Of a DNA stretch of 31,140 nt, positions 1-30,175 are shown piece by piece. The DNA is from a virus. A program made the position numbers and the translations under genes. The stretch lies in IMG/VR virus record IMGVR_UViG_3300037504_000994, positions 1-31,140 of that record. One strand, 5' to 3'. Below the pieces are notes generated by a model. It ran no database searches and was not told where the DNA came from. It saw only the letters and a program-made list of their open reading frames with translations. Position 1 is the first letter of the stretch; every line of letters begins with the position of its first letter.

Positions 1-329
1 TGCCAATACTCCGAAACCCGGTACACGTCTACGTCCTCGGTGTGCGACGGCAGGGAGTCCACGAAATCGAGAAGATCCTCCCAGGCCCGGAGATAGGCCC
101 GTTCCGTCTTGGGGGAGTTAGCGCTGTCCGCCAACCACTGATCGAAGCACTGCGCCCACTCGCGCTTAATGTCCATCCGCGAGGGCATCGGCATCGTGGG
201 GGTATAGTCCGTCTTCGCGCCTTCGCCGAACAGCGCGATAGCCATATCCGCCTCGGGCACATCCTCCACAACCTCACCCTCGATCACCTCGACCTCAAAC
301 ACGTCCGCCTCCAGGTCCAGATCAGGCAT
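1..329 (-). CDS. Tyrosine-recombinase-like protein, N-terminal part (runs off left edge)
   Basis: Reading the minus strand from an ATG at 329 gives an open frame that leaves the window. The first ~50 residues are acidic (MPDLDLEADVFEVEV...). From about residue 57 the sequence WAQCFDQWLADSANSPKTER, then AYLRAWEDLLDFV, matches the SAM-like core-binding domain at the N-terminus of phage integrases and XerC/D-type recombinases. The catalytic domain would lie outside the window and cannot be checked. The start is supported by a GGAG six bases upstream and by an 8-nt overlap with the end of the LexA-like gene, which suggests translational coupling in a three-gene leftward operon. This is a second recombinase-fold protein besides the integrase at 3075. 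It could be a recombinase, a resolvase, or a DNA-binding regulator that uses the recombinase fold, as SP-beta MrpR does. Confidence 0.72.
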   Translation of the reverse strand, partial: MPDLDLEADVFEVEVIEGEVVEDVPEADMAIALFGEGAKTDYTPTMPMPSRMDIKREWAQCFDQWLADSANSPKTERAYLRAWEDLLDFVDSLPSHTEDVDVYRVSEYW

Positions 330-726
330 CCGATGGCTCCACATCGACCTCGTACGTGGGGGACACGACGTCCATCTCACCCCACGGCACCAGCCTCAGG
401 CTGCGATGTACGTCGGTGTCCCACTCGATCAGCCCCAGACGCGCCAGCTTCATCAAATGTCGCTGCACGTTGCTGATGCAAATTCCCACCGCCTCCGAAA
501 TCTCACGGCGCGTCGGTGCGATATCGTGGGCCGCGATGTACTGCTCCACGTAGAGCAGCACTGCCTCAGTCGAACCCATCTCCTGAATATCCAGCGACAT
601 ATCAGCGTCATTGGCGTTCCTCGTCGGCGCCACCCCGGATTCCTTCAATGCCTCGATAGCCACCGACAAATCACCGTCCATCGGCCGCCACTCACCATCG
701 ATCGCCGCCCAAATCCTCGCGCCCAT
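322..726 (-). CDS. LexA-like winged-helix DNA-binding protein
   Basis: This is a 134-aa protein. From residue ~55 the segment STEAVLLYVEQYIAAHDIAP, then TRREISEAVGICISNVQRHL and MKLARLGLIEWD, follows the pattern of the LexA N-terminal winged helix (P-T-xREI-x-AVGI, then H-L-xKL-x-GLIE). There is no C-terminal S24 autopeptidase domain, so it is not a full LexA. It may be a regulator that recognises LexA-type or related operators without self-cleavage. The start at 726 was chosen because AAGGAGG lies seven bases upstream; a longer frame upstream lacks a good ribosome-binding site. It sits between the ribbon-helix-helix gene and the recombinase-like gene, with almost no gaps. The target site is unknown; the GAAC-N4-GTTC boxes elsewhere in the window are candidates. 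Confidence 0.75.
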   Translation of the reverse strand: MGARIWAAIDGEWRPMDGDLSVAIEALKESGVAPTRNANDADMSLDIQEMGSTEAVLLYVEQYIAAHDIAPTRREISEAVGICISNVQRHLMKLARLGLIEWDTDVHRSLRLVPWGEMDVVSPTYEVDVEPSDA

Positions 727-727
727 C

Positions 728-958
728 TCACGCCTCCTTCGATCCGGCGGCCAGCCGGGCCACCGACTCACGGGCCACATTCACGCCGCGCTCCTGTAAC
801 TCCGCGGCACGCTGCTGCTCCCAGTCATCCAACTCCCGCTCGATGACCCAGCGAAGCTGGCCCGAACGGGTTCGACCCTGGGCCTCGGCCCAACGGTCCA
901 CGCGATCCCGAAACTCTGGGTCCGTGTTGTAGATCATCAGGTGAGCATTCTCGTTCAT
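728..958 (-). CDS. Ribbon-helix-helix (Arc/CopG-type) DNA-binding protein
   Basis: This is a 76-aa protein starting at an ATG with GGAGG five bases upstream. A short beta strand (AHLMIYNT) is followed by DPEFRDRVDRWAEAQGRTRS and GQLRWVIERELDDWE, the strand-helix-helix layout of the MetJ/Arc/CopG fold. The C-terminal 25 residues look helical and charged. It is the first gene of the leftward early operon, directly behind the divergent promoter, so it is a plausible autoregulator or Cro-like partner of the XRE repressor. The stop falls two bases before the start of the LexA-like gene, so the two are probably coupled. The fold is supported by pattern; the regulatory role is inferred from position. 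Confidence 0.7.
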   Translation of the reverse strand: MNENAHLMIYNTDPEFRDRVDRWAEAQGRTRSGQLRWVIERELDDWEQQRAAELQERGVNVARESVARLAAGSKEA

Positions 959-991
959 TCTTACCTCCATCGTAATCATATATGTCGAGTC

Positions 992-1581: not shown

Positions 1582-1599
1582 ATTATAGAACGTCCGTTC
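1582..1599 (-). promoter_or_regulatory. LexA/SOS box overlapping a leftward promoter
   Basis: GAACGTCCGTTC (1588-1599) is a perfect GAAC-N4-GTTC palindrome, the core of Gram-positive LexA ('Cheo') boxes. In gene direction its centre, GGAC, fits the B. subtilis RNRY rule. It directly abuts a TATAAT -10 on the minus strand (1587-1582). A near-copy of the whole promoter, box and GGAGGTGA ribosome-binding site occurs at 2643-2660, implying shared regulation. Confidence 0.7.
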
Positions 1600-1701
1600 T
1601 ACCAAATGAAGGCCCCGGCCTTCCAATCGCCTGACAATCGCCGCCCTTAACGCTCTCGTAACGTCTCGATAACCCAACCTATCCCAACCCTGGAGATGCG
1701 A

Positions 1702-2138: not shown

Positions 2139-2486
2139 ATGCCGACCGATGACCTTGACATTGAAAGAGAAGAGTGGATCACTGCGGCGTTCGTTGAGGA
2201 AAAGAGGCGCCAGGTGAGAGAGGAGATCAACGACCTTCGGTATGTGACGAGTCGTCAGTACTTAAGCGGCGTGCTTAGAGCATCCGAAGATGCAAGCGAT
2301 GTGCACCTAATGCGTCTGGCCCTGGACAGCGACGATTATAATACCAACGAGTTTATGCAGAAGGCGTGTCGCATCCTAGCCGAGCTGTTGCCCGACGCGC
2401 ATCCTCTCCTGAAGGACATAGCGGATCGTCCGCCATTTGCAGCAGCATCGACGACGCCTGAAACCCGGAATCACCGTGATCGCTAA
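2139..2486 (+). CDS. Hypothetical acidic helical protein
   Basis: This is a 115-aa protein starting at ATG 2139, with GGAG six bases upstream; a TTG at 2127 in the same frame is the alternative. It is charged and mostly helical (EREEWITAAFVEEKRRQVRE), with no signal peptide, membrane segment or motif that I recognise. It follows the membrane protein by 20 bases and is probably co-transcribed with it. The last 134 bases overlap the convergent minus-strand gene ending at 2353, so one of the two C-termini may be dispensable or wrongly extended. Confidence 0.5.
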   Translation: MPTDDLDIEREEWITAAFVEEKRRQVREEINDLRYVTSRQYLSGVLRASEDASDVHLMRLALDSDDYNTNEFMQKACRILAELLPDAHPLLKDIADRPPFAAASTTPETRNHRDR

Positions 2487-2625
2487 GCGCCAAGCACTTC
2501 AACGCCTCGACAATCACCGGCCCGTGCTCCGGCGCTGCAACCAGAACAAAGAGGCCATCCGTGAACTCATAACGTGGTAGTCCGTGCGACTCGAGCTCGT
2601 CGGCATTGATGACAATCTCTGACAT
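2353..2625 (-). CDS. Hypothetical small protein under a LexA-type box
   Basis: This is a 90-aa protein (MSEIVINADELESHGLPRYE...). It starts at ATG 2625, with GGAGG six bases upstream. Behind this lies a TATACT promoter with an almost perfect GAAC-N4-GTTC box. The sequence FTDGLFVLVAAPEHGP then VIVEALKCLALSD looks like a small alpha/beta fold; the final 25 residues are low-complexity and overlap a convergent gene. No family is recognised. Because its promoter is nearly the same as the one facing into the repressor gene, it is probably switched on by DNA damage. An antirepressor or early lytic function is possible but unproven. Confidence 0.5.
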   Translation of the reverse strand: MSEIVINADELESHGLPRYEFTDGLFVLVAAPEHGPVIVEALKCLALSDHGDSGFQASSMLLQMADDPLCPSGEDARRATARLGCDTPSA

Positions 2626-2642: not shown

Positions 2643-2660
2643 AGTATAGCACAGACGTTC
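2643..2660 (-). promoter_or_regulatory. Second LexA/SOS box and promoter
   Basis: GCACAGACGTTC (2649-2660) matches GAAC-N4-GTTC at seven of eight fixed bases. It abuts a minus-strand TATACT (2648-2643). The region from the TTCAAA -35 to the GGAGGTGA signal aligns closely with the promoter at 1582-1610, so the two look like duplicates. Confidence 0.6.
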
Positions 2661-2676
2661 TACCATTTGAAGCGCA

Positions 2677-2959: not shown

Positions 2960-3015
2960 CGACCGCAGGCCCCATGATCCCCGTTACCCCGGTTCAAAAA
3001 AAACGCCCTGTCTGA

Positions 3016-3046
3016 TTAGCAGATGAGGCGCTCACATTAGCAGACC
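3016..3046 (+). repeat. Two direct half-sites of the 27-bp palindrome upstream of the integrase
   Basis: TTAGCAGATGAGGCGC (3016-3031) and TTAGCAGACCAGGCAC (3037-3052) are direct repeats offset by 21 bases, two helical turns. Both begin with the right arm of the dispersed palindrome. They end just before the integrase ribosome-binding site, where binding would affect integrase expression. Confidence 0.65.
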
Positions 3047-3074: not shown

Positions 3075-4013
3075 ATGTCCAGGCTCAATCTGACGCTCGA
3101 CCAAACCATCGACGGATTCCTGCTCCACTGCCAGTCCAAACGCCTCAGCCGGCACACCATCCGCAACTACCGATATGCCCTCGATAAACTGCTCACCCAC
3201 GTCCCCGGCACCACGCCCCTGGGGGACATCACCGTCCGCGACGTTTCTGCTGCCCTGGCTACCTACACCGACCTGAGCAAAAAGACGATGTCCAACGTCC
3301 ACGCCGCGCTCAGCGCGATGTGGAACTGGGCCGTCCGCCAGGAGTACGCCGACGAGAATCCTCTCGAACGCATCGACCGCCCCAAACCCGAGAAACGCAC
3401 CATCGTCCCCCTGACCGCTGACGAGATTAAGGCCCTCCTCAAATCCTGTGCCCAAACGAGGGCCTACACCCGGCCCGGCAAGCGCGCCTGTACCAACAGC
3501 CGGCCCACTGCCGTCCGGGATCGCGCCATCATCCTGACACTGCTCGACACCGGTCTCCGCGCTTCCGAGCTCTGCAACCTGACCATCGCCGACTACAACC
3601 AGCGGCGCAATCGCATTAGCGTATTTGGCAAGGGCTCGAAGGAGCGCACCATTCCCATCTCCACCCAGACCGCCGAGGCAATCTGGGAGTATCTGGCCAC
3701 GCGCAACAAAGCCACCACCCTGATGGATGAGCCCCTCTTCACCACATCCACCGGCCGTTCCTTGGACCGCCACCAACTCCGGCGCCTCCTCGTCCGCCTG
3801 GCCGACGCAGCCGGCGTCGAGGATGTCCACCCCCACAAGTTCCGCCACACGTTTGCCATCTTTTACCTGCGCAACGAGGGCGACATCTACAGCCTGCAGG
3901 AGATCCTTGGCCATAGCACGCTCGATATGGTCAAAAACTACCTGACCATCGCCCAGACCGACATCGACAAGGCCCACAAGCGCGCTTCCCCTGTCGCCAA
4001 TATGCGTTTGTGA
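3075..4013 (+). CDS. int: Tyrosine-recombinase integrase
   Basis: This is a 312-aa protein of XerC/D-like size that would integrate and excise the phage at the neighbouring att core. Residues ~5-95 form the SAM-like core-binding domain (TIDGFLLHCQSKRLSRHTIR). The catalytic domain shows all the expected residues: R162 in TGLRASEL, K186 or K189 in FGKGSKERTI, H254 and R257 in HPHKFRHTF, H280 in ILGHSTLDM, and the nucleophile Y289 in VKNYL. An arm-binding N-terminal extension like that of lambda Int is absent or very short, although arm-type repeats are present nearby. The start is clear: GGAGG seven bases upstream. An insertion between residues ~124 and 147 (AQTRAYTRPGKRACTN) is longer than in typical Xer proteins. 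Confidence 0.93.
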   Translation: MSRLNLTLDQTIDGFLLHCQSKRLSRHTIRNYRYALDKLLTHVPGTTPLGDITVRDVSAALATYTDLSKKTMSNVHAALSAMWNWAVRQEYADENPLERIDRPKPEKRTIVPLTADEIKALLKSCAQTRAYTRPGKRACTNSRPTAVRDRAIILTLLDTGLRASELCNLTIADYNQRRNRISVFGKGSKERTIPISTQTAEAIWEYLATRNKATTLMDEPLFTTSTGRSLDRHQLRRLLVRLADAAGVEDVHPHKFRHTFAIFYLRNEGDIYSLQEILGHSTLDMVKNYLTIAQTDIDKAHKRASPVANMRL

Positions 4014-5209: not shown

Positions 5210-5235
5210 AAGGCCCCGGCAATTGCCGGGGCCTT
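5210..5235. terminator. Bidirectional rho-independent terminator
   Basis: GGCCCCGGC (5212-5220) and GCCGGGGCC (5225-5233) form a perfect stem with the loop AATT, flanked by AA and TT. It separates the plus-strand 4121-5175 operon from the end of the minus-strand late operon, whose last stop is at 5281. Just upstream, TTACTCGTT is repeated at 5177 and 5190. Confidence 0.85.
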
Positions 5236-5280: not shown

Positions 5281-8200
5281 CTACCGATCCGCCAGCGCCA
5301 CCACCGGCGACCGCGGTCCCCATTCCAGATCGTACCACCCGCCGCCCCACCACTCAGACGAGCTCCCCGCGTCCGCCAGGTGCCACGCACACGCGCCCGC
5401 CACCTCGCCGCGCTGGGCCAGATAGTCGAACGCCTCCCGCAGCCGCTGGCCCCACGTCACCTCGTCGTAGAAGCCGGTCCCATCCGGCAGCCGCACGATA
5501 AGATCCTCGTCACACCAGTTCAGTTCCCACATATGGAACGGGCTGTAAAGCACGCCTTCCGTGATGATCGTCGTGATCTCCTCATCCTCACCCGTCTTCT
5601 CCCGGATCCACCGGCGGTATGGTTCGTACCCCCGGAGGCACATATCATCGACGCCCTGGCCCCACGTCGGCTCGTAGTCGAACGGCCGTGCGAACGCCGC
5701 GCTGTGAACCGCTAACCACACATTAGCAGACCGGATCCACCGGGGGAGCTCGTAGCCGTGTGTGGCCATCAACCGGGCTATAAACCCCTTGAACCACATC
5801 CAGGACGAATACCGGGGATTGAGACCGCCGCGCTCCGTCGGCCCCATCGCCGGAATCGCCGGGCAGCCACCCCATTCGACGATCTGCACGGCGTCCAGCC
5901 ACCAGCTATCCGCTGCCTGGTTGACCAGCTCGACATCGTGCCAGTCCACGCGCTCGTGGTAGTCCGGCTGCCATTCCACCGTCAGGTTCAGCTCGTTCAT
6001 CACTTCCATGAATGGCTTGAACCGCGTGCCGTGAGCGGCGTTGTATGACAGAACCGTCCCGATCATCTGACGCACGGCCCGCGCCCCGTTCACGATCACC
6101 TGATTCCGGCCGGGGAGCTGCGCGTCGTCGTAGATCCGCACCACCGGCTGGATGCCGGCACCCATCAGCTTATCCATCAGGTCGTAGGTGCCCGGATGCC
6201 CGTTAAACAGCAGCTTGTACCACCGAACCCCCAGCATCCGTAGCCGGCCGATCAGCGCGTCGAGATCCTCCGGTGGCGCCGTCGAGATTGGCCCGTGGAC
6301 ACCCCTCACCGATGTCGGATCTGGGGGAGGGGGCTGATCCTTGCCCCACCCCGCTAGCCACGGCCACGAATCGCCCGGGCACTGTGTTCCGATGACGTCC
6401 TTATGCCCCCAGACACTCAGCCCCTTGCCCACCACCTCCTCGAGGTAGTCGATTAGAGCCACCAGCGACGCCATCTGGGCATCCGTCGGCTCCCGACCGT
6501 CGATGAATCTGCCCAACAGGCATACCGCGATGCCCCACCAATTCTCGTCTCCGGGGTGCGACGCACTCCCCTGTCCAAAGACCACATTCTCCAGATCGCT
6601 CGTTTGCCAGATTGTACCGTCTGCACCGATCACGTAACTGTAGCAGATCCCCGGTCGGTTTTTCCCGTCCGGCGCGACGTGATACCGCGCGATGGCCTTG
6701 ACCGTCGCGATGTCGCTCGACAGCGCGCCCGCGCTGTGGTGCACAAACACCGTATTGATCTCGCTCAACTGACGCCGGCGCCACGGATACCACGGGCTCT
6801 GTGGATTCGTCGCCATCCGGTCCCGCACGTCCACGATCTCCAGCTCCGGCTCCGGATCCTGCCCGGCCGGAGGAGGCTCACCGCCGTTCGGCAGTGGGCG
6901 AAAAACGAGTACCGCCTCGGGATCGCGCTCCGCGTAGAACGCGATGTAGTCGACGTCATCCTCGCTGAAGCCCGGCAGCTCGATGGTGCTGGTCCGCGCG
7001 TTAGGTGGTCGGTTCGCCGCCTCGTCGTGCGACGGTCCGCAGTAAATCCCCCGCTGACGCGCCTCCTGGTAGAGAACTTCTCGGATAGCTTCGTCCTGAA
7101 TCCGGTCGTAGTCGACCACCAGCACACGGCGATCATACCCCGGTTCCGGCTCCGGTTCGGGATCCGGCTCCTCCGGCTCCACGCTCAGGATCGCCCGTGC
7201 CGCATCCACCGCGATCGCGCGCCAGTGCGACAGGTGCATACGGATGTCGAAGCCCCGCCATGGCCCCCAGCTAAATAAGTGTACGTCCGTCACCTCCGGA
7301 TCCTCCGCGGCTTTCGTCAAATACCAGCGCATCTGCCGTTCCCACTCCTCGCCGGAGATTTCGGTCATCTTGCGCGCCAGATTCACCTCGGTCAGCGCCA
7401 CGGGTACGAATAGCCCGCGCGCCCGCAGGATCTCCAGCCAGTAGCGATACCTGAACGCCAATGGCCCTTTGTCCGATGCGTCGCCGTCGTAGCCCGGCAG
7501 CGCATCGCCGAACCACTTATCCATAGGATCAGCGTACTCGTGCAGGCAGAGGACAAGGCCCTCCGGATCGTCAAAGACGCCCGTCTCGACCACGGCCCGC
7601 ATCTCGTCCCACTCCGGCACGCCCAGGCTGTAGCTGAAAGCGCCGACCGTCACCCCGTCCCGCCGGCCCAGCCTACCCAGTTCCTTGAAGAATAGCCCGA
7701 GCTTGACGTGGTCGGCGTCTTGCTCATTGATGATCTCTAGGATATCGATGAGTGGTAGATAATCAGCCATCACATCCATCAGCGCGTCCCACACGCGCCC
7801 GGCCGCCGTCACAGGATCCGGGTCCAGACTGGGCCCTTCGATGTTGATGTCGTACCCCGGTAGCATCGACAGCCGGAACGTCGTGCGGATGTGCGGATTG
7901 ATCCGCTTGAATAGCCGCAGCGTGTTGGCCATCTCCGGCACACCGTAGACTTTGATCGTCGGCAAGGCCGCCGCGATCTGCGCCGGCGTCGCTTCCGGGA
8001 ACTCGCGCACCATCTGCTCGTGCAAGGCCCGGAGCTCGTCGCTGGCGCCGTTGTCGCCCAGCGTGACGTGCAGGCCCGGCGGCACCATCGCCCGTTCGAC
8101 GGGTGGCGCCGGCGGACCCGGCTCGTCCGGCTCCCCCACGACCTCCCACACAGGGGCAGCGATATAGCGGTCGTTGTGCTTCGTCCGCCACTTGTTCGAC

Positions 8201-8860: not shown

Positions 8861-8887
8861 GGTCCGCTAACCCTCTATTAGTGGATC
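8861..8887. repeat. 27-bp dispersed palindrome, copy 3
   Basis: Arms GGTCCGCTAA and TTAGTGGATC flank the spacer CCCTCTA. It covers the last codons and the stop of the coiled-coil gene and ends 29 bases upstream of the lysin start. Confidence 0.85.
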
Positions 8888-12524: not shown

Positions 12525-12551
12525 GTTCCGCTAACCGGTTATTAGCAGACC
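12525..12551. repeat. 27-bp dispersed palindrome, copy 4
   Basis: Arms GTTCCGCTAA and TTAGCAGACC flank the spacer CCGGTTA. It lies just upstream of the tail-fibre ribosome-binding site, in the 54-bp gap after the C1q-like gene. Confidence 0.85.
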
Positions 12552-13232: not shown

Positions 13233-14762
13233 CTAGTAAATCCACACGTCCCCGCCCTGCCAGGTCGACGTGTTCCACGTGCCCGCCGTCGCCCCGTAGT
13301 CATAGGCCTCTTCCAGATCCATAGAGACCACGTGCTCGCCCGTCCGGAAGTCGATCTCGTGCCGCAACCCGTAGATGAATCCCTCGAAGCTGCTCAGGCC
13401 CACCTGCGTCTCCGTCACGTCCACCCGGTCCACCAGCTCCAGATCGCGCGCCGCCGCCATCATCGTGGCGTTGTAGTTGGCCAGGAACTGCACGTTCCGC
13501 ACCATCCCCCGCGGGTCCTTGTAGTAATCGAGCAGGAAGTCGGCCAATGACGCCGCCTCTGCCTCACTGCTGATCAGCACCGCGTCGATGGGCAGCCGCA
13601 GCTTGCCGTAGAGTCCCTGGCTCGTCGCGTCCTCCTCTACCAGCGTCACCGACCGCGCCCGGACCGCGTAGCCGCGCACCCGCAGCGTCTGCACGTAGAC
13701 GGCGTGAGCCGCGCCGTTGGTCAGCGTCACCTCGGCGTGATCGCCGTAGGCGTCCATACCGGAGGTGACGTTGGAAGTCTCGTCGTCGCCCTCCCCGCCC
13801 TCGTCGCTGGTACATTCGTAATCCGTCGACGCCACCGGTGTAATCGCGTCTTTGCCGCCCAATGAGACGGCGATGTTGCTGGGATCCTGGTAGCGGATCG
13901 TGAAGGTGCGGCTCGCCCCGGCCTCGATGATCGGCGCCGTGCCGTCCGAAAGCTTCCCCAGCACCTCCGGAGAGGATCCCACCCTGCGGGGATGGCACGT
14001 CACCTCGATGTAGTTGAAGATCTGAGTCTCGCTCATCTCGTAGTCCAGCCCGATCATCGTGTCGTCCAGCGTCAGCTCCGCCGCCGCGTCCAGCGGCATC
14101 TGGTGCCGGTTGATGAAGGTCGGCTTGCCGTCGCCGGCGAAGAAGAACTTGCCCCAGTCCGCCGTGCACGCATCCAGCACCTTGTCGCTGGCCCGGATAT
14201 CCTGGACCGGTCCGTTGGCCGCTTCGCGCTCCCAACTCCACCGGTCGGAGCTGGTCGGGAAGAGATTGATCCCTGCCTGGAAGTCGGTGGTCGGTGGGGA
14301 GTCGTAGACCGCGTTGATCACGTCGTCGATCACCTCGTCGGCGTAGACGTCGGTCACCAGCGCGATAGCGCCCTCGCTGGTGTCCAGCACCTTCATATCG
14401 TCTACGCACTCGATCATCGTCACCCGGTCCGCGCTGTACTGGTCCGCCGTCGGCTTGATCGAGGTCAGGTAGCCCGCGAATAGCGTCGTCGTCGTCCCGT
14501 CATAGGTCATCTCGAACTTGACCTTGCGCCGGGGCCGCACGTTGGCCGCCAGCGGCGGGCTGTAGTCCTGGTCCACGTTGTTCAGAATCGCGCTCAGTCG
14601 CCCCACCCGCGTCATCCGGGCCAGCGGATCGGAGAATCCCCGGTCGATGACGACCTTGTCCAGCATATCCGAGGTGACGTCCTCGCCGGCGTCGCCGTAG
14701 TCTCCATCCCCGTTCCAGTCGATGGAGAGCGTGTAGGTTGCCGTTTCCGTCGTGACCGTCAT
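13233..14762 (-). CDS. Tail hub / minor tail protein
   Basis: This is a 509-aa protein. The opening (TYTLSIDWNGDGDYGDAGED) and long beta-rich body are typical of the baseplate hub or minor tail protein encoded after the tape measure in siphoviruses. The NGDGDYGDAGED stretch has EF-hand-like calcium-binding spacing of Asp and Gly. It is separated from the tape measure gene by the plus-strand moron cassette, breaking the usual direct succession. Its ribosome-binding site AGGGGA lies inside the left arm of copy 5 of the 27-bp palindrome, so a protein bound there, or that arm in mRNA, could affect it. Confidence 0.7.
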   Translation of the reverse strand: MTVTTETATYTLSIDWNGDGDYGDAGEDVTSDMLDKVVIDRGFSDPLARMTRVGRLSAILNNVDQDYSPPLAANVRPRRKVKFEMTYDGTTTTLFAGYLTSIKPTADQYSADRVTMIECVDDMKVLDTSEGAIALVTDVYADEVIDDVINAVYDSPPTTDFQAGINLFPTSSDRWSWEREAANGPVQDIRASDKVLDACTADWGKFFFAGDGKPTFINRHQMPLDAAAELTLDDTMIGLDYEMSETQIFNYIEVTCHPRRVGSSPEVLGKLSDGTAPIIEAGASRTFTIRYQDPSNIAVSLGGKDAITPVASTDYECTSDEGGEGDDETSNVTSGMDAYGDHAEVTLTNGAAHAVYVQTLRVRGYAVRARSVTLVEEDATSQGLYGKLRLPIDAVLISSEAEAASLADFLLDYYKDPRGMVRNVQFLANYNATMMAAARDLELVDRVDVTETQVGLSSFEGFIYGLRHEIDFRTGEHVVSMDLEEAYDYGATAGTWNTSTWQGGDVWIY

Positions 14763-14763
14763 T

Positions 14764-14790
14764 GTTCCCCTAATTCACTATTAGCAGACC
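14764..14790. repeat. 27-bp dispersed palindrome, copy 5
   Basis: Arms GTTCCCCTAA and TTAGCAGACC flank the spacer TTCACTA. It overlaps the ribosome-binding site of the hub gene and ends four bases before the SOS box of the divergent moron promoter. Confidence 0.85.
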
Positions 14791-14794
14791 ACTA

Positions 14795-14838
14795 GAACGC
14801 ACGTTCCATTGACGCCGACCACCGACATGGCGTATACT
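14795..14838 (+). promoter_or_regulatory. SOS-boxed sigma-70 promoter of the moron gene
   Basis: GAACGCACGTTC (14795-14806) is a perfect GAAC-N4-GTTC box that fits the B. subtilis RNRY rule. Two bases later TTGACG (14809-14814) and, after 18 bases, TATACT (14833-14838) form a strong promoter, with a start expected near 14845. LexA bound there would cover the -35. Confidence 0.75.
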
Positions 14839-14844
14839 GTAGAT

Positions 14845-15010
14845 GAGCCTGCAGCTCACACACAGCCGAAAGTCGAATGCACATATTCCAAAGAAGCATG
14901 GTACAATGATCATGCAGGTCCCTGATCGGCGGCTTTCTCTGTGAGTTGCAGGCTCCGGAAAGTGCAGCGGTCGGGGATCTGTCTATGTTACAGAGCGAAG
15001 GAGCCTGCAA
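14845..15010 (+). ncRNA. Structured leader with alternative hairpins (possible RNA switch)
   Basis: Segment A (14845-14860, GAGCCTGCAGCTCACA) can pair with segment B (14940-14955) over 16 bases with one G-U. The last 11 bases of B, TTGCAGGCTCC (14946-14956), can instead pair perfectly with segment C, GGAGCCTGCAA (15000-15010). C contains the Shine-Dalgarno sequence and ends at the base before the ATG. A:B would leave translation open; B:C would close it. A begins at the predicted transcript start. Smaller hairpins, GCATG/CATGC (14896-14915) and TCTGT/ACAGA near 14980, lie inside the loops. A possible inner promoter, TACAAT (14902), would give an RNA without A. Confidence 0.55.
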
Positions 15011-15322
15011 ATGCCTACACACTCTGACCCACCCGCGGATGCGTCCGCACCGGAAGCCGACCTGCCCCGAGAGCAGATCCTCACGATGACCCTGGGCGAA
15101 TACCTCGCCCATATGGGCCGCAACGAAACGATCTGCCGCCGCAACCATTTCACCGGCGCCGTCCTCGCCGCCCTGGAGCAGACGCCCCTGGGCGAATGGC
15201 CCGAGACCGTCGCCCACGCCGTCACCGTCAGCGTCCAACAAGCCGCCGTCGACCATCCTGATCCTCAGTATCTCCTCTGGGAAATCGGCCGCGCCATCGT
15301 CGTTGCCTCCATCGAGCTCTAG
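15011..15322 (+). CDS. Plus-strand moron gene inside the tail operon, unknown function
   Basis: This is a 103-aa protein (MPTHSDPPADASAPEADLPR...). It is the only gene on the plus strand within the 26-kb late region, inserted between tape measure and hub. It has its own promoter, LexA-type box, structured leader and terminator, the defining layout of a moron. The first ~20 residues are disordered; residues 25-103 look like a compact helical domain (LTMTLGEYLAHMGRNETICR, WPETVAHAVTVSVQQAA, YLLWEIGRAIVVASIEL). No signal peptide or clear membrane segment is present. The start has GAAGGAG eight bases upstream. The family is unknown. Control suggests a product made on DNA damage and tuned by RNA structure; anti-host, anti-repressor or exclusion functions are all open. 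Confidence 0.7.
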   Translation: MPTHSDPPADASAPEADLPREQILTMTLGEYLAHMGRNETICRRNHFTGAVLAALEQTPLGEWPETVAHAVTVSVQQAAVDHPDPQYLLWEIGRAIVVASIEL

Positions 15323-15328
15323 CCCCAC

Positions 15329-15362
15329 GCCCCTCCCCCGCATATCGACGTGGGGGAGGGGC
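15329..15362. terminator. Bidirectional terminator-like hairpin after the moron gene
   Basis: GCCCCTCCCCC (15329-15339) pairs with GGGGGAGGGGC (15352-15362), an 11-bp perfect stem with a 12-base loop. It lies between the convergent ends of the moron gene and the tape measure gene. No T-tract follows on either strand. Confidence 0.7.
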
Positions 15363-15378
15363 CCTTCGTCTGTCCGCA

Positions 15379-16950
15379 TCACCGCAGCCGTGCTCCCCGC
15401 AGGATCCCGCGATCCTCCAACTCCCGGATCACCCGCTGGGCCGTCGCGCCGGGGCTTCCCGCGTCCGGAATCACGATATCGCCGTTCCACACCGACCCAC
15501 CGTTGTTCACCGTGCCCCCACCGCCGCCCGTCAGCGGCGTAATAAAGACCCCGGATGACGTCGCCCGCATAAACTCAGGCTGCCCGCCCTCTCCGACCAC
15601 GCCCGTCCGGCCCGCCGGCAGGAACCCGCCCGTCGCGAATCCTCGGCTATATGCCCCACCGGTGATATCATCCATAAACTCCTCGCGACCACCGGCGCGC
15701 TCCTGGCGCACCTTCATCAACATCTCAATCTCCAGCCGGGTGGGAACGTCGTTCAGTGCATCGCGAATCCTGTTGATCGCATCGCGAACCCGGTCGCCCT
15801 GGCTGGCTGTTTCCTGCATCGAATCCCGCAGCTTGCTTTGATTGTCCAAAAACGCCGATGTCGCGGCTTCCGAATCCATCAGCGCTTGGTTATATTGATC
15901 GTGCGCGACAGCCGTGTCGCTGGTTCCGTTTGCCAGATCCCGCTGTACCCTGGCCACCACGCTGTTAGTTTCCGCGTAACGCTCTGCCAATCCGGTATAC
16001 CGTTGCGTTTCCGCGCTCACAGCCTGCAAACGGCCCTCAATGTCGTCTAAACCGACGCGGCTTTCTCCCCAGATTGTTCGGGTGCGATTCATCATTGAGT
16101 TGTAATGCGCCTGGCTGGCCGCCGCGTCACCGAATATCCGTGCATAATCGTTGATCGCCGACTGTTGATCGTTGACCTCCCGCGTCACTTTTGCGATCCC
16201 CCTGGCCATCGTGCCCAATATTGGGGCGAATCCACGACCCAACTCCGACTTTAGGTCGGCCCACGCGGCTTTAGCCTGCAGCACCGATGTGACGTTATCC
16301 TCGACGGTGCCATCCAGTTTCTCATATTTCTCATTCATCAACTCCAAGATCGCAGTGTCGAACGCCTCGTTAGCGTCCATTCCCGCATCCTTAAGCTCTT
16401 GAATGCGCTCCGTAGCCTCCTCGACGCCGATGCCGAAACTGTCGACTCGGGCCAGGGAGTCATTTGACATCATGATTTGAAACTGCTGCATCGTTCCGCC
16501 GAAGCGCCCGCCCAGCGCGTCGACGTTGCGCGTGATATCCGCGATGCCCTCCGCGCTGTCGGCCAGCCCCAGCGCCATCAGGTTGGTGGCGTCTTCCATC
16601 AACTGGGCCTCGCTGCGCGTGTAGAGCGTTGCCTCCTGGAGCTGATCGAGCATTATTGTCGCGCGCTGGCTACCGCCCGCGATGCGTTCAAAGGAACGCT
16701 CGGAGCGTTCGGCTTGCGCGCCGAGCTCGGCCAACTCCACAGTGACCTGTGCTACCTTCCTGGCCGCAGCTACAGCGCCGATGGCCTTGAGCGTGTTGGT
16801 GAGCTTGGTGAAACCGTCGTCGGCTTGACGAGACCCAGCGTCTGCCTTGCGCGTCACATCGTCAAGTCCCTGTAACTCCTGCTTGGCATCCTGGATGTCG
16901 CGGGTAGCCTCATCCAGCATACTCAATATGATCTCGACCCTACTCGCCAT
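15379..16950 (-). CDS. Tape measure protein (short)
   Basis: This is a 523-aa protein that sets tail length and is threaded through the tube. The N-terminus (MASRVEIILSMLDEATRDIQ) and the long helical stretches with Ala/Gln/Glu heptads are typical. The C-terminal Gly-rich segment (GGAYSRGFATGGFLPAGRTG, EGGQPEFMRATSSGVFITPL) is a hallmark of tape measure C-termini. It follows two tail-assembly chaperones, as expected, overlapping the second by 11 bases. It is short for the family; at about 0.15 nm per residue it predicts a tail of roughly 80 nm. Confidence 0.85.
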   Translation of the reverse strand: MASRVEIILSMLDEATRDIQDAKQELQGLDDVTRKADAGSRQADDGFTKLTNTLKAIGAVAAARKVAQVTVELAELGAQAERSERSFERIAGGSQRATIMLDQLQEATLYTRSEAQLMEDATNLMALGLADSAEGIADITRNVDALGGRFGGTMQQFQIMMSNDSLARVDSFGIGVEEATERIQELKDAGMDANEAFDTAILELMNEKYEKLDGTVEDNVTSVLQAKAAWADLKSELGRGFAPILGTMARGIAKVTREVNDQQSAINDYARIFGDAAASQAHYNSMMNRTRTIWGESRVGLDDIEGRLQAVSAETQRYTGLAERYAETNSVVARVQRDLANGTSDTAVAHDQYNQALMDSEAATSAFLDNQSKLRDSMQETASQGDRVRDAINRIRDALNDVPTRLEIEMLMKVRQERAGGREEFMDDITGGAYSRGFATGGFLPAGRTGVVGEGGQPEFMRATSSGVFITPLTGGGGGTVNNGGSVWNGDIVIPDAGSPGATAQRVIRELEDRGILRGARLR

Positions 16951-20118: not shown

Positions 20119-20725
20119 AATGCCGCGCCAGCTCCTTAATGTCTCGATAGAGAGGCGTTGCCGCCTCAACGTCTTCCCACGTCACCGCCCTATGCTCCCT
20201 GTGATGTACATCCGTAGAAAGCCCGTCCAAAATCGCCGTTGCCGCTTGTTCTGCTAATAATGAGTTAGTGGACCTGACATATCCCATCCACATCTCCCAT
20301 ACCTCATTCAGAGATTCGATGCGATACGTGTACGCAGCCTGATGCTCGCATAGCTCATTCCACCGCAGCCAATACTCCGCTGCCCTGCGCAGCACCGGCG
20401 CTCCCCGGTCCACGTCGATGTGTTTGCACGTCCAGTCCCACGAGATCGGCTGTGCCGTCGTCAGGCTGCCGATGGTAGCCAGCGGCTCCCGAACCTGGTG
20501 CAGCACGATATTGAACATAGGATACGGTCCCTGCTGATGGTAAGGCGGATATTTGCTGTCCGTAACCGCCCATAAACTCGACACAATGCCGTCCCGTCCC
20601 AGTCGCTCGTGTCCCACGTCCAGGCCCAGCCGTTGCAGCACGCGCGCGATGTACAGCGTCCCGCTGCGACCGCAGCCCGTGACCAGGATCACAGCCGGCC
20701 CCGTTCCCGCAGCCACGCCGCGCAT
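20099..20725 (-). CDS. Sulfotransferase-like protein
   Basis: This is a 208-aa protein. VTGCGRSGTLYIARVLQRLG (residues 16-34) matches the 5'-phosphosulfate-binding P-loop of PAPS-dependent sulfotransferases. HQVREPLATIGSL (76-88) matches the 3'-phosphate-binding motif (R-x-P-x-x-x-x-x-S). It is shorter than most family members but holds both PAPS motifs. It probably transfers sulfate to a sugar or protein, most simply a glycan made by the three neighbouring glycosyltransferases. It overlaps both neighbours and contains copy 7 of the 27-bp palindrome. A simple nucleotide-binding P-loop protein is the alternative. Confidence 0.7.
   Translation of the reverse strand: MRGVAAGTGPAVILVTGCGRSGTLYIARVLQRLGLDVGHERLGRDGIVSSLWAVTDSKYPPYHQQGPYPMFNIVLHQVREPLATIGSLTTAQPISWDWTCKHIDVDRGAPVLRRAAEYWLRWNELCEHQAAYTYRIESLNEVWEMWMGYVRSTNSLLAEQAATAILDGLSTDVHHREHRAVTWEDVEAATPLYRDIKELARHYGYRAS
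20248..20274. repeat. 27-bp dispersed palindrome, copy 7 (in sulfotransferase gene)
   Basis: Arms GTTCTGCTAA and TTAGTGGACC flank the spacer TAATGAG. It lies inside the coding sequence and encodes VRSTNSLLAEQ. Both arms are well conserved (9 and 8 of 10) although the position is coding. Confidence 0.75.
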
Positions 20726-22442: not shown

Positions 22443-22469
22443 GATCGCCTAACGTTTGATTAGTGGATC
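22443..22469. repeat. 27-bp dispersed palindrome, copy 8
   Basis: Arms GATCGCCTAA and TTAGTGGATC flank the spacer CGTTTGA. It lies in the intergenic region after the capsid gene, between a G+C-rich hairpin (22474) and the decoration gene. Confidence 0.8.
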
Positions 22470-26310: not shown

Positions 26311-26337
26311 GTTCCGCTAACGCTACATTAGCAGGCC
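26311..26337. repeat. 27-bp dispersed palindrome, copy 9
   Basis: Arms GTTCCGCTAA and TTAGCAGGCC flank the spacer CGCTACA. It fills the gap between the portal and MuF genes and its last base is the last base of the portal stop codon (read on minus). Confidence 0.85.
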
Positions 26338-27800: not shown

Positions 27801-29377
27801 GATACCTCCTCTGGAGCAAAGGTGAGGGCCAGGGCGTCCAACAAATCTGGGCTTCGCCCAAGGCTTTTACGCAGCTTTTCCTTATCCGTCACCTTGATCT
27901 CTCCCTTCTTCACTGCATAGCGAGGAGCGCATAGCTCATCCGCTAAGTCCTCATTAGGGGGCAGGGCTGCCTCCGGATCCGTGCGCAACCACTCTCTCAC
28001 GCGCCACAGCATCTGATCCCGCAGAAGCCCGAACTCGCCCTCCTCGACGATCTCCGTTGCGGAGCTGGCCACCTTGACGGCGACGGCTGCCCCGTCGTAG
28101 GGCTTCATCAATCCGGCGTCGAGATCCTGCTCCCAGCGCCGGTACATCTGTGGGGCCACGCCTGATCCTAACCCTGTCGCATCGACAAAGGAGACCTCTG
28201 CGTTGCGCTCGTAGGCCGCGCGGGCCGCGCGGTCGCCGGTCACCAGCACGTCCACCCCACTCCACGTCTCGAAATGATCTACCCAGGATCCGTACCGCCA
28301 GCAGGCAGCGTTACGGTCCGTGCCGAACTCCGCCACATCCTGCCCGTGGATCGGTCGCACGCCCTCCGGCGGCTTCGCTCCTACCCGCTCACGACGTGCC
28401 ACCCACCGAGCCATTGCGGCTTGTACCCAGGCCCTGGCGATAAGCTGGTTCTCGGATTGGCCCGGATACCGGGCCAATACCATATAGGCCAGCGCGGGGT
28501 TGGTGATCTCGCGCCACTCCCCGCCGACCAGCGGCCCCAGCTCCTGCCCGTTCTTCGCAGTCGCCTTGGCGCCGTCCAGATAATTCGGTACCCTAAACCA
28601 ATCCGGGCTGTCGTCTGGCACGTCCTCGCCCGTTGCCGCGGGCCGGCTCCACTCACAAATGCGCCGGACCGTCGTTTCGCGATCCACCGCACCCGGAATC
28701 ACGTTGCGTCCGGTGACCACGTTCGGATGACCGAATGCATCCAGGATCACTACGTTGGCCTCGCCGCTCTGAATCATCCGATAGACCGGGCCCGAGGCGT
28801 CCCGCGGGTTGAACATCACCAACAGTCGGACGTGCCCGCCCGACATACAGCTCTCAATGCCCTTGTACACCTCGTCCGGCACCGCGTCGCCCTCGTCCAC
28901 GATAAACAATAGGTGCGGCGCGTGCACGCCGCTGAATTTCGCCTCGCGTTGCGCCGGCGTCCCGCTCTGTGGAATCGCTCGTCCAACCATCCACCAATCC
29001 GGCGCCACCTCGATATTCAGGTAGCCGGCCGTCATATCCTCGACGACCTCCGAGGCAGCCATCATCCGCGCTTCAACCTCACTCCACAACAGGTTTTCCA
29101 GGTTTTCGAGGGGCGGCGCCGCCGTCGCGATGACCTTGGCCCGCGGGAAGGTGCTGAGAAACCACAGCGCGATACCGCTGGCCACATACGTCTTGCCGAC
29201 CGCGTTGGCCGACTGCACGACCGTCACCGTGTAGTCTCGCACGCTCTCGCTGACCTGCTCCTGCGCATCGATGAGATTGCAGCCCAACACGCTCCCGATG
29301 AAGCCGTTGGGGTCTGTCTGATAGCGCGTCAGATTCGCGCTAGTCCGTGTCGGCATCTGCTGCAGACGTTCCAGCAT
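27785..29377 (-). CDS. terL: Terminase large subunit
   Basis: This is a 530-aa ATPase-nuclease that packages DNA. From ATG 29377, QSANAVGKTYVASGI (~56) is the Walker A motif, LLFIVDEGDAV (~157) Walker B with catalytic Glu, and FNPRDASG the coupling motif. The RNase H-like nuclease shows HGQDVAEFGTDRNA (~345, two Asp), FVDATGLGSG (~398) and SPDLLDALAL (~510). The start is uncertain: ATG 29377 has GAAGGTG close upstream, while the in-frame ATG at 29449 would overlap the small subunit gene by 110 bases. A degenerate copy of the 27-bp palindrome lies near its end. Confidence 0.93.
   Translation of the reverse strand: MLERLQQMPTRTSANLTRYQTDPNGFIGSVLGCNLIDAQEQVSESVRDYTVTVVQSANAVGKTYVASGIALWFLSTFPRAKVIATAAPPLENLENLLWSEVEARMMAASEVVEDMTAGYLNIEVAPDWWMVGRAIPQSGTPAQREAKFSGVHAPHLLFIVDEGDAVPDEVYKGIESCMSGGHVRLLVMFNPRDASGPVYRMIQSGEANVVILDAFGHPNVVTGRNVIPGAVDRETTVRRICEWSRPAATGEDVPDDSPDWFRVPNYLDGAKATAKNGQELGPLVGGEWREITNPALAYMVLARYPGQSENQLIARAWVQAAMARWVARRERVGAKPPEGVRPIHGQDVAEFGTDRNAACWRYGSWVDHFETWSGVDVLVTGDRAARAAYERNAEVSFVDATGLGSGVAPQMYRRWEQDLDAGLMKPYDGAAVAVKVASSATEIVEEGEFGLLRDQMLWRVREWLRTDPEAALPPNEDLADELCAPRYAVKKGEIKVTDKEKLRKSLGRSPDLLDALALTFAPEEVSWLLH
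27937..27963. repeat. 27-bp dispersed palindrome, degenerate copy 10
   Basis: Arms CATCCGCTAA and TTAGGGGGCA flank the spacer GTCCTCA. It is inside the terL gene. Left arm 7 of 10, right arm 6 of 10; the CTAA-N7-TTAG centre is intact. It is the weakest copy. Confidence 0.45.
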
Positions 29378-30146
29378 CTTCACCTTCGCCCATGTCGGCC
29401 ACTCTCTCCAATTGCTGCTCAATCGCGCTTTCAAGTCCCTGCACCTCAATTGGCAATGCTACACCCCGCAGCCGCGTGATAGTATCCGCGGCTTCCTCGT
29501 CAGATAGTGCCAATAGCGTCTCGCTCGCCTTGATCCCGTGCTGGTCGCGATTCTCCTTAGCCGTGTCCCGCAGGCCCTGGACCGCGTCCAGGCTCCCCTC
29601 GGCGATCGCTCGGCGCCGCAATTGCGACGCACGTGCTTCAATGGCTGCTGTCTGCTCGTCTCTCCAACGAAGGGCGGCCCTTGTAGCTATCTCCAGAGCT
29701 TCCGAAATAGCTGGATCATTCTGCCATCGTTGGTACCAAATCCGTTGATTACATACACGGGGATCTTCAAAGACATGGCTCCATGGCACGTCGTTTGCTG
29801 TTGCACTGGCCAACAAGAGTACGGTCGCCCGCTTTTTGGCCACGTGCGGCTTTTTAATCTCATCCAACGCTCGACGTAAGTCTATATTTAGCCAACCAAC
29901 CGCTTCTGGTGGCGTATCTTTGCTCCACCATCTCCAAGTTAGGCTCATCTGGTACCACAGATCCGCCGAGGTACCGAAAGCCTCCCCGAGCGCCTTCGCG
30001 AAATCCCTGGTGATAGCTCTGTCTTTCTCTAGAATCTTATGTAGCACAGCAAGTTCCAAGCCGGACGTGCGGGACAGGTCTTCTAGGGACCATCCCCGCT
30101 CCTCCAACTCCCGCTCTATCACATCTCCCGGCCTTGAAACTCGCAT
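29340..30146 (-). CDS. Small terminase candidate with N-terminal HigA-like HTH
   Basis: This is a 268-aa protein starting at ATG 30146, with AGGAG four bases upstream. Residues 1-70 (RPGDVIERELEERGWSLEDL, ITRDFAKALGEAFGTSADLW) closely follow HigA-type antitoxin/XRE domains, including the helix after the HTH with the FGTSADLWYQ signature. The middle (VFEDPRVCNQRIWYQRWQND, ISEALEIATRAALRW) resembles the DNA-binding part of small terminases. The rest is a helical oligomerisation region. Its place before terL supports a TerS role. The extra HTH is unusual and may let it bind an operator as well as the pac or cos site. Confidence 0.65.
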   Translation of the reverse strand: MRVSRPGDVIERELEERGWSLEDLSRTSGLELAVLHKILEKDRAITRDFAKALGEAFGTSADLWYQMSLTWRWWSKDTPPEAVGWLNIDLRRALDEIKKPHVAKKRATVLLLASATANDVPWSHVFEDPRVCNQRIWYQRWQNDPAISEALEIATRAALRWRDEQTAAIEARASQLRRRAIAEGSLDAVQGLRDTAKENRDQHGIKASETLLALSDEEAADTITRLRGVALPIEVQGLESAIEQQLERVADMGEGEDAGTSAADADTD

Positions 30147-30175
30147 CGGTCTCCTAACAATCCCGTACGGGCATC

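Follow-up and report, generated by a model that had tools for sequence, protein, structure and literature searches.

Phage morons are usually regarded as serving a lysogen at rest, and structured leaders are known from the SOS-induced toxin genes tisB and symE. The closest described systems are the Gifsy prophages, in which antirepressor units are reported to be held by LexA and the phage repressor is not self-cleaved (PMC3121763), phage GIL01, for which LexA together with gp7 is described as holding the lytic promoter P1 (PMC4551915), and phage morons, for which high expression in the lysogen is described as frequent (PMC7067206). Literature searches found no work on phage genes under SOS control in Chloroflexota, and those combining LexA with moron or tape measure found no LexA-held moron in a tail operon. 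The locus described here, which lies between the tape measure and hub genes of a temperate phage, is a real moron in an odd place, probably under SOS control.

Phage genome and probable host

The window is the whole of IMG/VR virus record IMGVR_UViG_3300037504_000994 (31,140 bases), and by our own gene list 8.4% of it is intergenic. It encodes a temperate tailed phage with an integrase (3075-4013), a CI-like repressor (1094-1510), and terminase, portal, major head protein, tape measure, and hub genes (PHROGs). A probable attP core at 2846-2887, beside the integrase gene, corresponds to the 3' half of a tRNA-Pro(TGG). Within the genome collection, this 42-mer is matched exactly by just two contigs, from MAGs named Anaerolineae and Thermoflexia, and ARAGORN identified tRNA-Pro(TGG) on both. 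Because the attachment half matches exactly only those contigs, the host probably lies in or near the Anaerolineae/Thermoflexia lineage (Chloroflexota). Elsewhere in the record, 728-979 (minus strand) shows a match to a RelB-like antitoxin below the cut-off, and 29340-30260 (minus strand) encodes a HigA-like HTH protein of 306 aa that overlaps the terminase start.

Organization of the plus-strand unit

The gap between the hub and tape measure genes measures 616 bp and holds one plus-strand unit, opposite in direction to the tail genes.

13233-14762, minus strand, hub gene (PHROGs)
14764-14790, copy of a dispersed palindrome that adjoins the hub start codon on its upstream side
14793-14808, LexA-type box TAGAACGCACGTTCCA, abutting the -35 on its upstream side
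14795-14806, LexA-type core GAACGCACGTTC within that box, GAAC-N4-GTTC, perfect in its 8 fixed bases
14809-14838, plus strand, sigma-70-type promoter TTGACG-18-TATACT, consensus match at 10 of 12 positions
14845-15010, plus strand, leader RNA of about 166 nt, its start site inferred from the -10
15011-15322, plus strand, 103-aa ORF with an AAGGAG Shine-Dalgarno sequence and an ATG at 15011
15329-15339/15352-15362, GC-rich 11-bp hairpin between the convergent moron and tape measure genes
15379-16950, minus strand, tape measure gene (PHROGs)

The initial annotation had described this gap as a self-contained moron with a LexA-type box, a strong promoter, a long leader, a terminator, and a bordering 27-bp palindrome, and each of these elements is present where it was placed, the promoter and the long leader as described. 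The promoter scan returned 2 promoter-like sites in 2.2 kb, compared with 0.6 expected. The terminator is a tentative one: the hairpin has 11 Watson-Crick pairs and a predicted stability of -30.9 kcal/mol, the highest among the 8 listed perfect hairpins of at least 9 pairs, but few T residues follow its stem, so that the U tract is weak, and a strict terminator scan did not report it. A comparable hairpin at 5210-5235 likewise lies between convergent genes. The arrangement supports a predicted separate transcription unit oriented against the tail operon, and its anatomy is of a kind known from other morons.

The palindrome is one of nine, at 2677-2703, 5706-5732, 8861-8887, 12525-12551, 14764-14790, 20248-20274, 22443-22469, 26311-26337, and 30927-30953. 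The copies are near GGTCTGCTAAT...ATTAGCAGACC and mostly lie in intergenic DNA just upstream of minus-strand gene starts; two half sites at about 3014-3046 form a direct repeat upstream of the integrase gene. The set looks like stoperator-type repressor sites. The copy bordering the moron probably serves the hub instead because, like the phage-wide set, it lies directly before a start codon, here that of the hub.

The tape measure junction in related phages

The tape measure gene directly adjoins the next gene in each of the seven relatives read, with spacings from a 4-bp overlap to a 7-bp gap, and only the window has an insert at this junction. The presence or absence comparison thus bears out the claim that the unit interrupts a gene pair, and an insert between genes that adjoin in relatives (closed in 7 of 7) that also carries a consensus-like promoter of its own is what is expected of a moron. 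The relatives were the records G009, G014, G022, and G023 (the last two near-identical), the prophages of G094 and G200, and L088. A PHROG profile search of 13 of the 25 terminase relatives identified the tape measures of the first four; the G094 and G200 prophages were found through their head protein and L088 through its hub, and for G094 and L088 the tape measure was identified solely from length and position. Seven regions were fetched from five genomes, among which G094 (two of its three regions) and G200 were read for gene order; no tape measure was matched in the regions of G039, G372, and G397, which were left out of the gene-order reading. The window's tape measure matched none of the 25 terminase relatives, and it and the major head protein gave no IMG/VR relatives. 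Because the relatives read are distant (terminase identity of 43-58%, and head protein identity of about 48-49% in G094), the comparison speaks for a junction that is normally closed and does not date the insertion.

The 103-aa product

Length is uninformative for an ORF in this GC-rich window, which contains 156 ORFs of at least 60 aa. The codon score of the moron ORF is +0.094 per codon, compared with a mean of 0.257 (sd 0.104) for known-gene blocks, and a score that high is found in 1 of 275 off-frame blocks. Its GC contents at the three codon positions (0.73, 0.47, and 0.79) resemble the values of 0.62, 0.46, and 0.78 for the phage genes. From the Shine-Dalgarno sequence and this codon usage, we take the plus-strand ORF as the probable gene.

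The predicted protein is acidic (pI 4.7, net charge of about -9) with a GRAVY of -0.11, and at 103 aa it is not the short hydrophobic peptide of a TisB-like type I toxin. Searches of Pfam, PHROGs, NCBIfam (best E of 0.03, far below the cut-off), IMG/VR, and phage and plasmid sequences by tblastn found no homologs, and the best phmmer match in the PDB had an E of 0.23. Among 396 genomes of the class there was 1 weak match (E of 0.0088), and among 400 genomes of the phylum there were 4 (E of 0.003-0.009), all with internal stops; both results are at chance level. A single-sequence AlphaFold model is helical with a pLDDT of 61, and Foldseek found nothing for it in the PDB or BFVD at an E of 0.001. 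Profile searches, tblastn, and structure prediction therefore agree with the first impression that the product belongs to no recognized family. The DNA of the unit gave 15 matches of about 25-52 bp in the 396 genomes, all at query positions 311-535, which lie within or just past its GC-rich coding part, and 4 matches of 22-37 bp in phages; both sets were read as chance.

LexA-type sites in the window and in the probable host order

LexA-type sites were surveyed in the order of one MAG (G026), for which 48 genomes were sampled, 41 of them with a lexA gene above the NCBIfam cut-off. Among the 30 lexA loci delivered from this sample, the 250 bases before lexA contain GAAC-N4-GTTC without a mismatch in 20 and with no more than one in 28; the remaining 90,569 bases of the same loci contain 8 perfect matches. 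The typical frame is GACA-YAGAAC-N4-GTTC followed by TAT, i.e., between -35- and -10-like sequences, and the survey yields a usable box motif for the sampled Anaerolineae/Thermoflexia order. Because lexA promoters in that order carry the same type, the GAAC-N4-GTTC box of the moron is of a type that fits the likely host, which upholds its identification as LexA-type. The 16-bp pattern occurs in 4 places and 1 place in the genomes of the two MAGs that share the attachment sequence, where the adjoining genes are not all classical SOS genes; a reversed control pattern occurs in neither.

A 16-bp matrix built from the 28 lexA-promoter sites ranked three sites of the window above the rest, the next scoring 12.6 (intragenic) and 8.4.

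1586-1601, minus strand, best LexA-type box of the window (20.5), with TATAAT and a GGAGGTGA ribosome-like site downstream
2647-2662, minus strand, LexA-type box (19.1) before TATACT, GGAGGTGA, and a 90-aa ORF (2353-2625, minus strand)
14793-14808, LexA-type box of the moron (14.6)

The moron promoter thus carries a box of the host-lineage type, the third best in the window and the weakest of the three. The box had been called perfect, which holds for all 8 fixed core bases, but it has one mismatch to the 16-bp form TAGAAC-N4-GTTCTA, and its central bases are unlike those of the lexA-promoter sites; it also sits upstream of the -35, whereas lexA's own box lies between the -35- and -10-like sequences. 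The 12-bp core alone is not rare, with 2 perfect copies in 31 kb and 11 copies with at most one mismatch compared with 11.6 expected. At least one site as good as that at 14793 was found in 11 of 100 Markov windows and three such sites in none, which makes the set of three predicted sites significant and leaves the moron box, taken singly, suggestive as a LexA site. It gains weight because it is placed against a -35 within the small intergenic share of the genome.

Leader RNA

Folding predicts a 16-pair stem at the 5' end of the leader, joining 14845-14860 with 14940-14955. The 3' arm has a second possible partner, since 14946-14956 (eleven bases) would also pair without a mismatch to 15000-15010, where the Shine-Dalgarno sequence lies; the two pairings are mutually exclusive. 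The mean openness of the Shine-Dalgarno sequence was 0.27-0.56 across nine folded fragments, except for 0.03 in an RNA starting at 14930. The leader could possibly act as a translation switch, in either direction. Its folding z-score is -1.81, with 7 of 200 shuffles folding equally well. No Rfam family matched the leader at its gathering score; a mir-1323 match (26.3 bits, gathering score 98) was rejected. Production of an untranslated RNA from a second promoter at 14878-14907 was also rejected, as the folds displayed no clear switch.

Repressor and possible routes of induction

The CI-like repressor (plus strand, 138 aa) matches HTH families, and no peptidase or self-cleaving domain was found in it. 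No S24 peptidase (PF00717) was detected at an E of ≤0.1 anywhere in the record, which may be incomplete, in a search whose control was positive in 12 of 14 genomes. Because no such peptidase was found, induction by repressor self-cleavage, the lambda route, looks unavailable to this phage. A phage repressor without a self-cleaving domain is the situation of the Gifsy prophages, and genes held by LexA would then be the natural SOS input, as they are there; such genes, and the moron with them, are candidate induction switches.

The transcript predicted from the 1586 site would start at about 1575 (minus strand) and run antisense into the CI-like repressor gene; the 68-aa ORF behind the site has poor codon usage. 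The promoter and start region at 2647 resemble those at 1586, and the 90-aa ORF there has no family match. This gene is closer than the moron to the immunity region and appears at least as good a candidate for an antirepressor. A further element is a 152-aa protein (322-780, minus strand) with a LexA-type DNA-binding domain (PF01726, E of 9.6e-11, above the cut-off) and no peptidase domain, whose recognition helix differs from those of nine aligned LexA proteins of the likely host order.

Proposed function and alternative explanations

The reading that we favor, with a probability of roughly 55%, is a one-gene moron that is held by the host LexA and induced by DNA damage. In the course of events that we infer, LexA bound at 14793-14808 in the lysogen would cover the edge of the -35 and keep the promoter off, and damage would lead to LexA self-cleavage and free it. 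Transcription would then run from about 14845 against the tail operon until the hairpin at 15329-15362, the opening 16-bp stem of the transcript could keep its 3' arm from pairing with the ribosome site, and the 103-aa protein would act in induction or on the damaged host. The best single guess for the protein is a part in induction, for example, as an antirepressor, a tentative choice with the odds against it, which is made on the ground that no self-cleaving repressor domain was found in the phage. It is doubtful that induction as a whole runs through three dispersed LexA-held units, namely, a leader-switched moron acting as an antirepressor of a new family, the promoter antisense to the repressor gene, and the 90-aa gene.

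Were the LexA-like box fortuitous or unused, the gene would be an ordinary lysogenic-conversion moron whose promoter is on in the lysogen. The near-consensus promoter is consistent with this, as is the recovery of so good a site in 11 of 100 random windows, and own-promoter genes antisense to lytic genes are described as a known moron pattern (PMC7067206). However, the box abuts the -35 in a genome with 8.4% intergenic DNA, and other promoters of the phage contain two better-scoring sites of this type; the explanation is rather unlikely. Control of the unit could instead rest with a phage regulator, such as the 322-780 protein with its PF01726 domain and lack of a peptidase domain, in which case the unit would be an early or late gene outside the SOS response; the recognition helix of this protein, however, is unlike that of LexA in the likely host order, whose lexA promoters the boxes match, and such control seems quite unlikely.

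Two further readings concern the gene itself. The structured leader might be the main product, as a regulatory RNA, with the ORF minor or spurious, and the 16-pair stem at the inferred 5' end and the lack of relatives of the ORF fit this; the Shine-Dalgarno sequence and gene-like codon usage, the modest z-score matched by 7 of 200 shuffles, and the lack of an Rfam family at gathering score make it very unlikely. Least probable is that a tail gene on the minus strand (ORF 14792-15490) fills the gap and that the plus-strand ORF is its mirror. At 232 aa, this in-phase antisense ORF is the longer of the two, and across the moron stretch its frame reaches +0.105 per codon, a score similar to that of the moron ORF, but its whole-length score is -0.062 (blocks of -0.06, 0.23, -0.16, and -0.26), and it starts within the tape measure gene, crosses the promoter and leader, and has no PHROG match.

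Comparison with known systems

If a damage-induced moron is indeed what the locus encodes, it would act as the prophage prepares to leave, in induction, prophage competition, or host shut-off. Its interest lies mainly in the possibility that it belongs, with the two other LexA-type sites, to an induction circuit of a phage from a phylum that has received little study. With tisB and symE it would share LexA control and a long leader with the potential to hide the ribosome site, and it differs from them in encoding a 103-aa protein without a known fold. As in the phage morons described in PMC7067206, a single gene with its own promoter and hairpin lies opposite the lytic genes at a site that is empty in relatives; unlike those, which are often highly expressed in the lysogen, it is probably repressed by LexA. 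GIL01, as described (PMC4551915), likewise has a phage promoter under host LexA, but there it is the lytic promoter that is held, whereas here it would be an accessory gene in a phage with a CI-like repressor. The likeness to the Gifsy prophages, as far as they are described in PMC3121763, is one of layout, with no sequence relation claimed: both have a separate LexA-box unit far from the immunity region that encodes a small protein, in a prophage whose repressor is not self-cleaved, and the present unit differs in its long leader and in its place within the tail operon, whose genes it opposes in direction.
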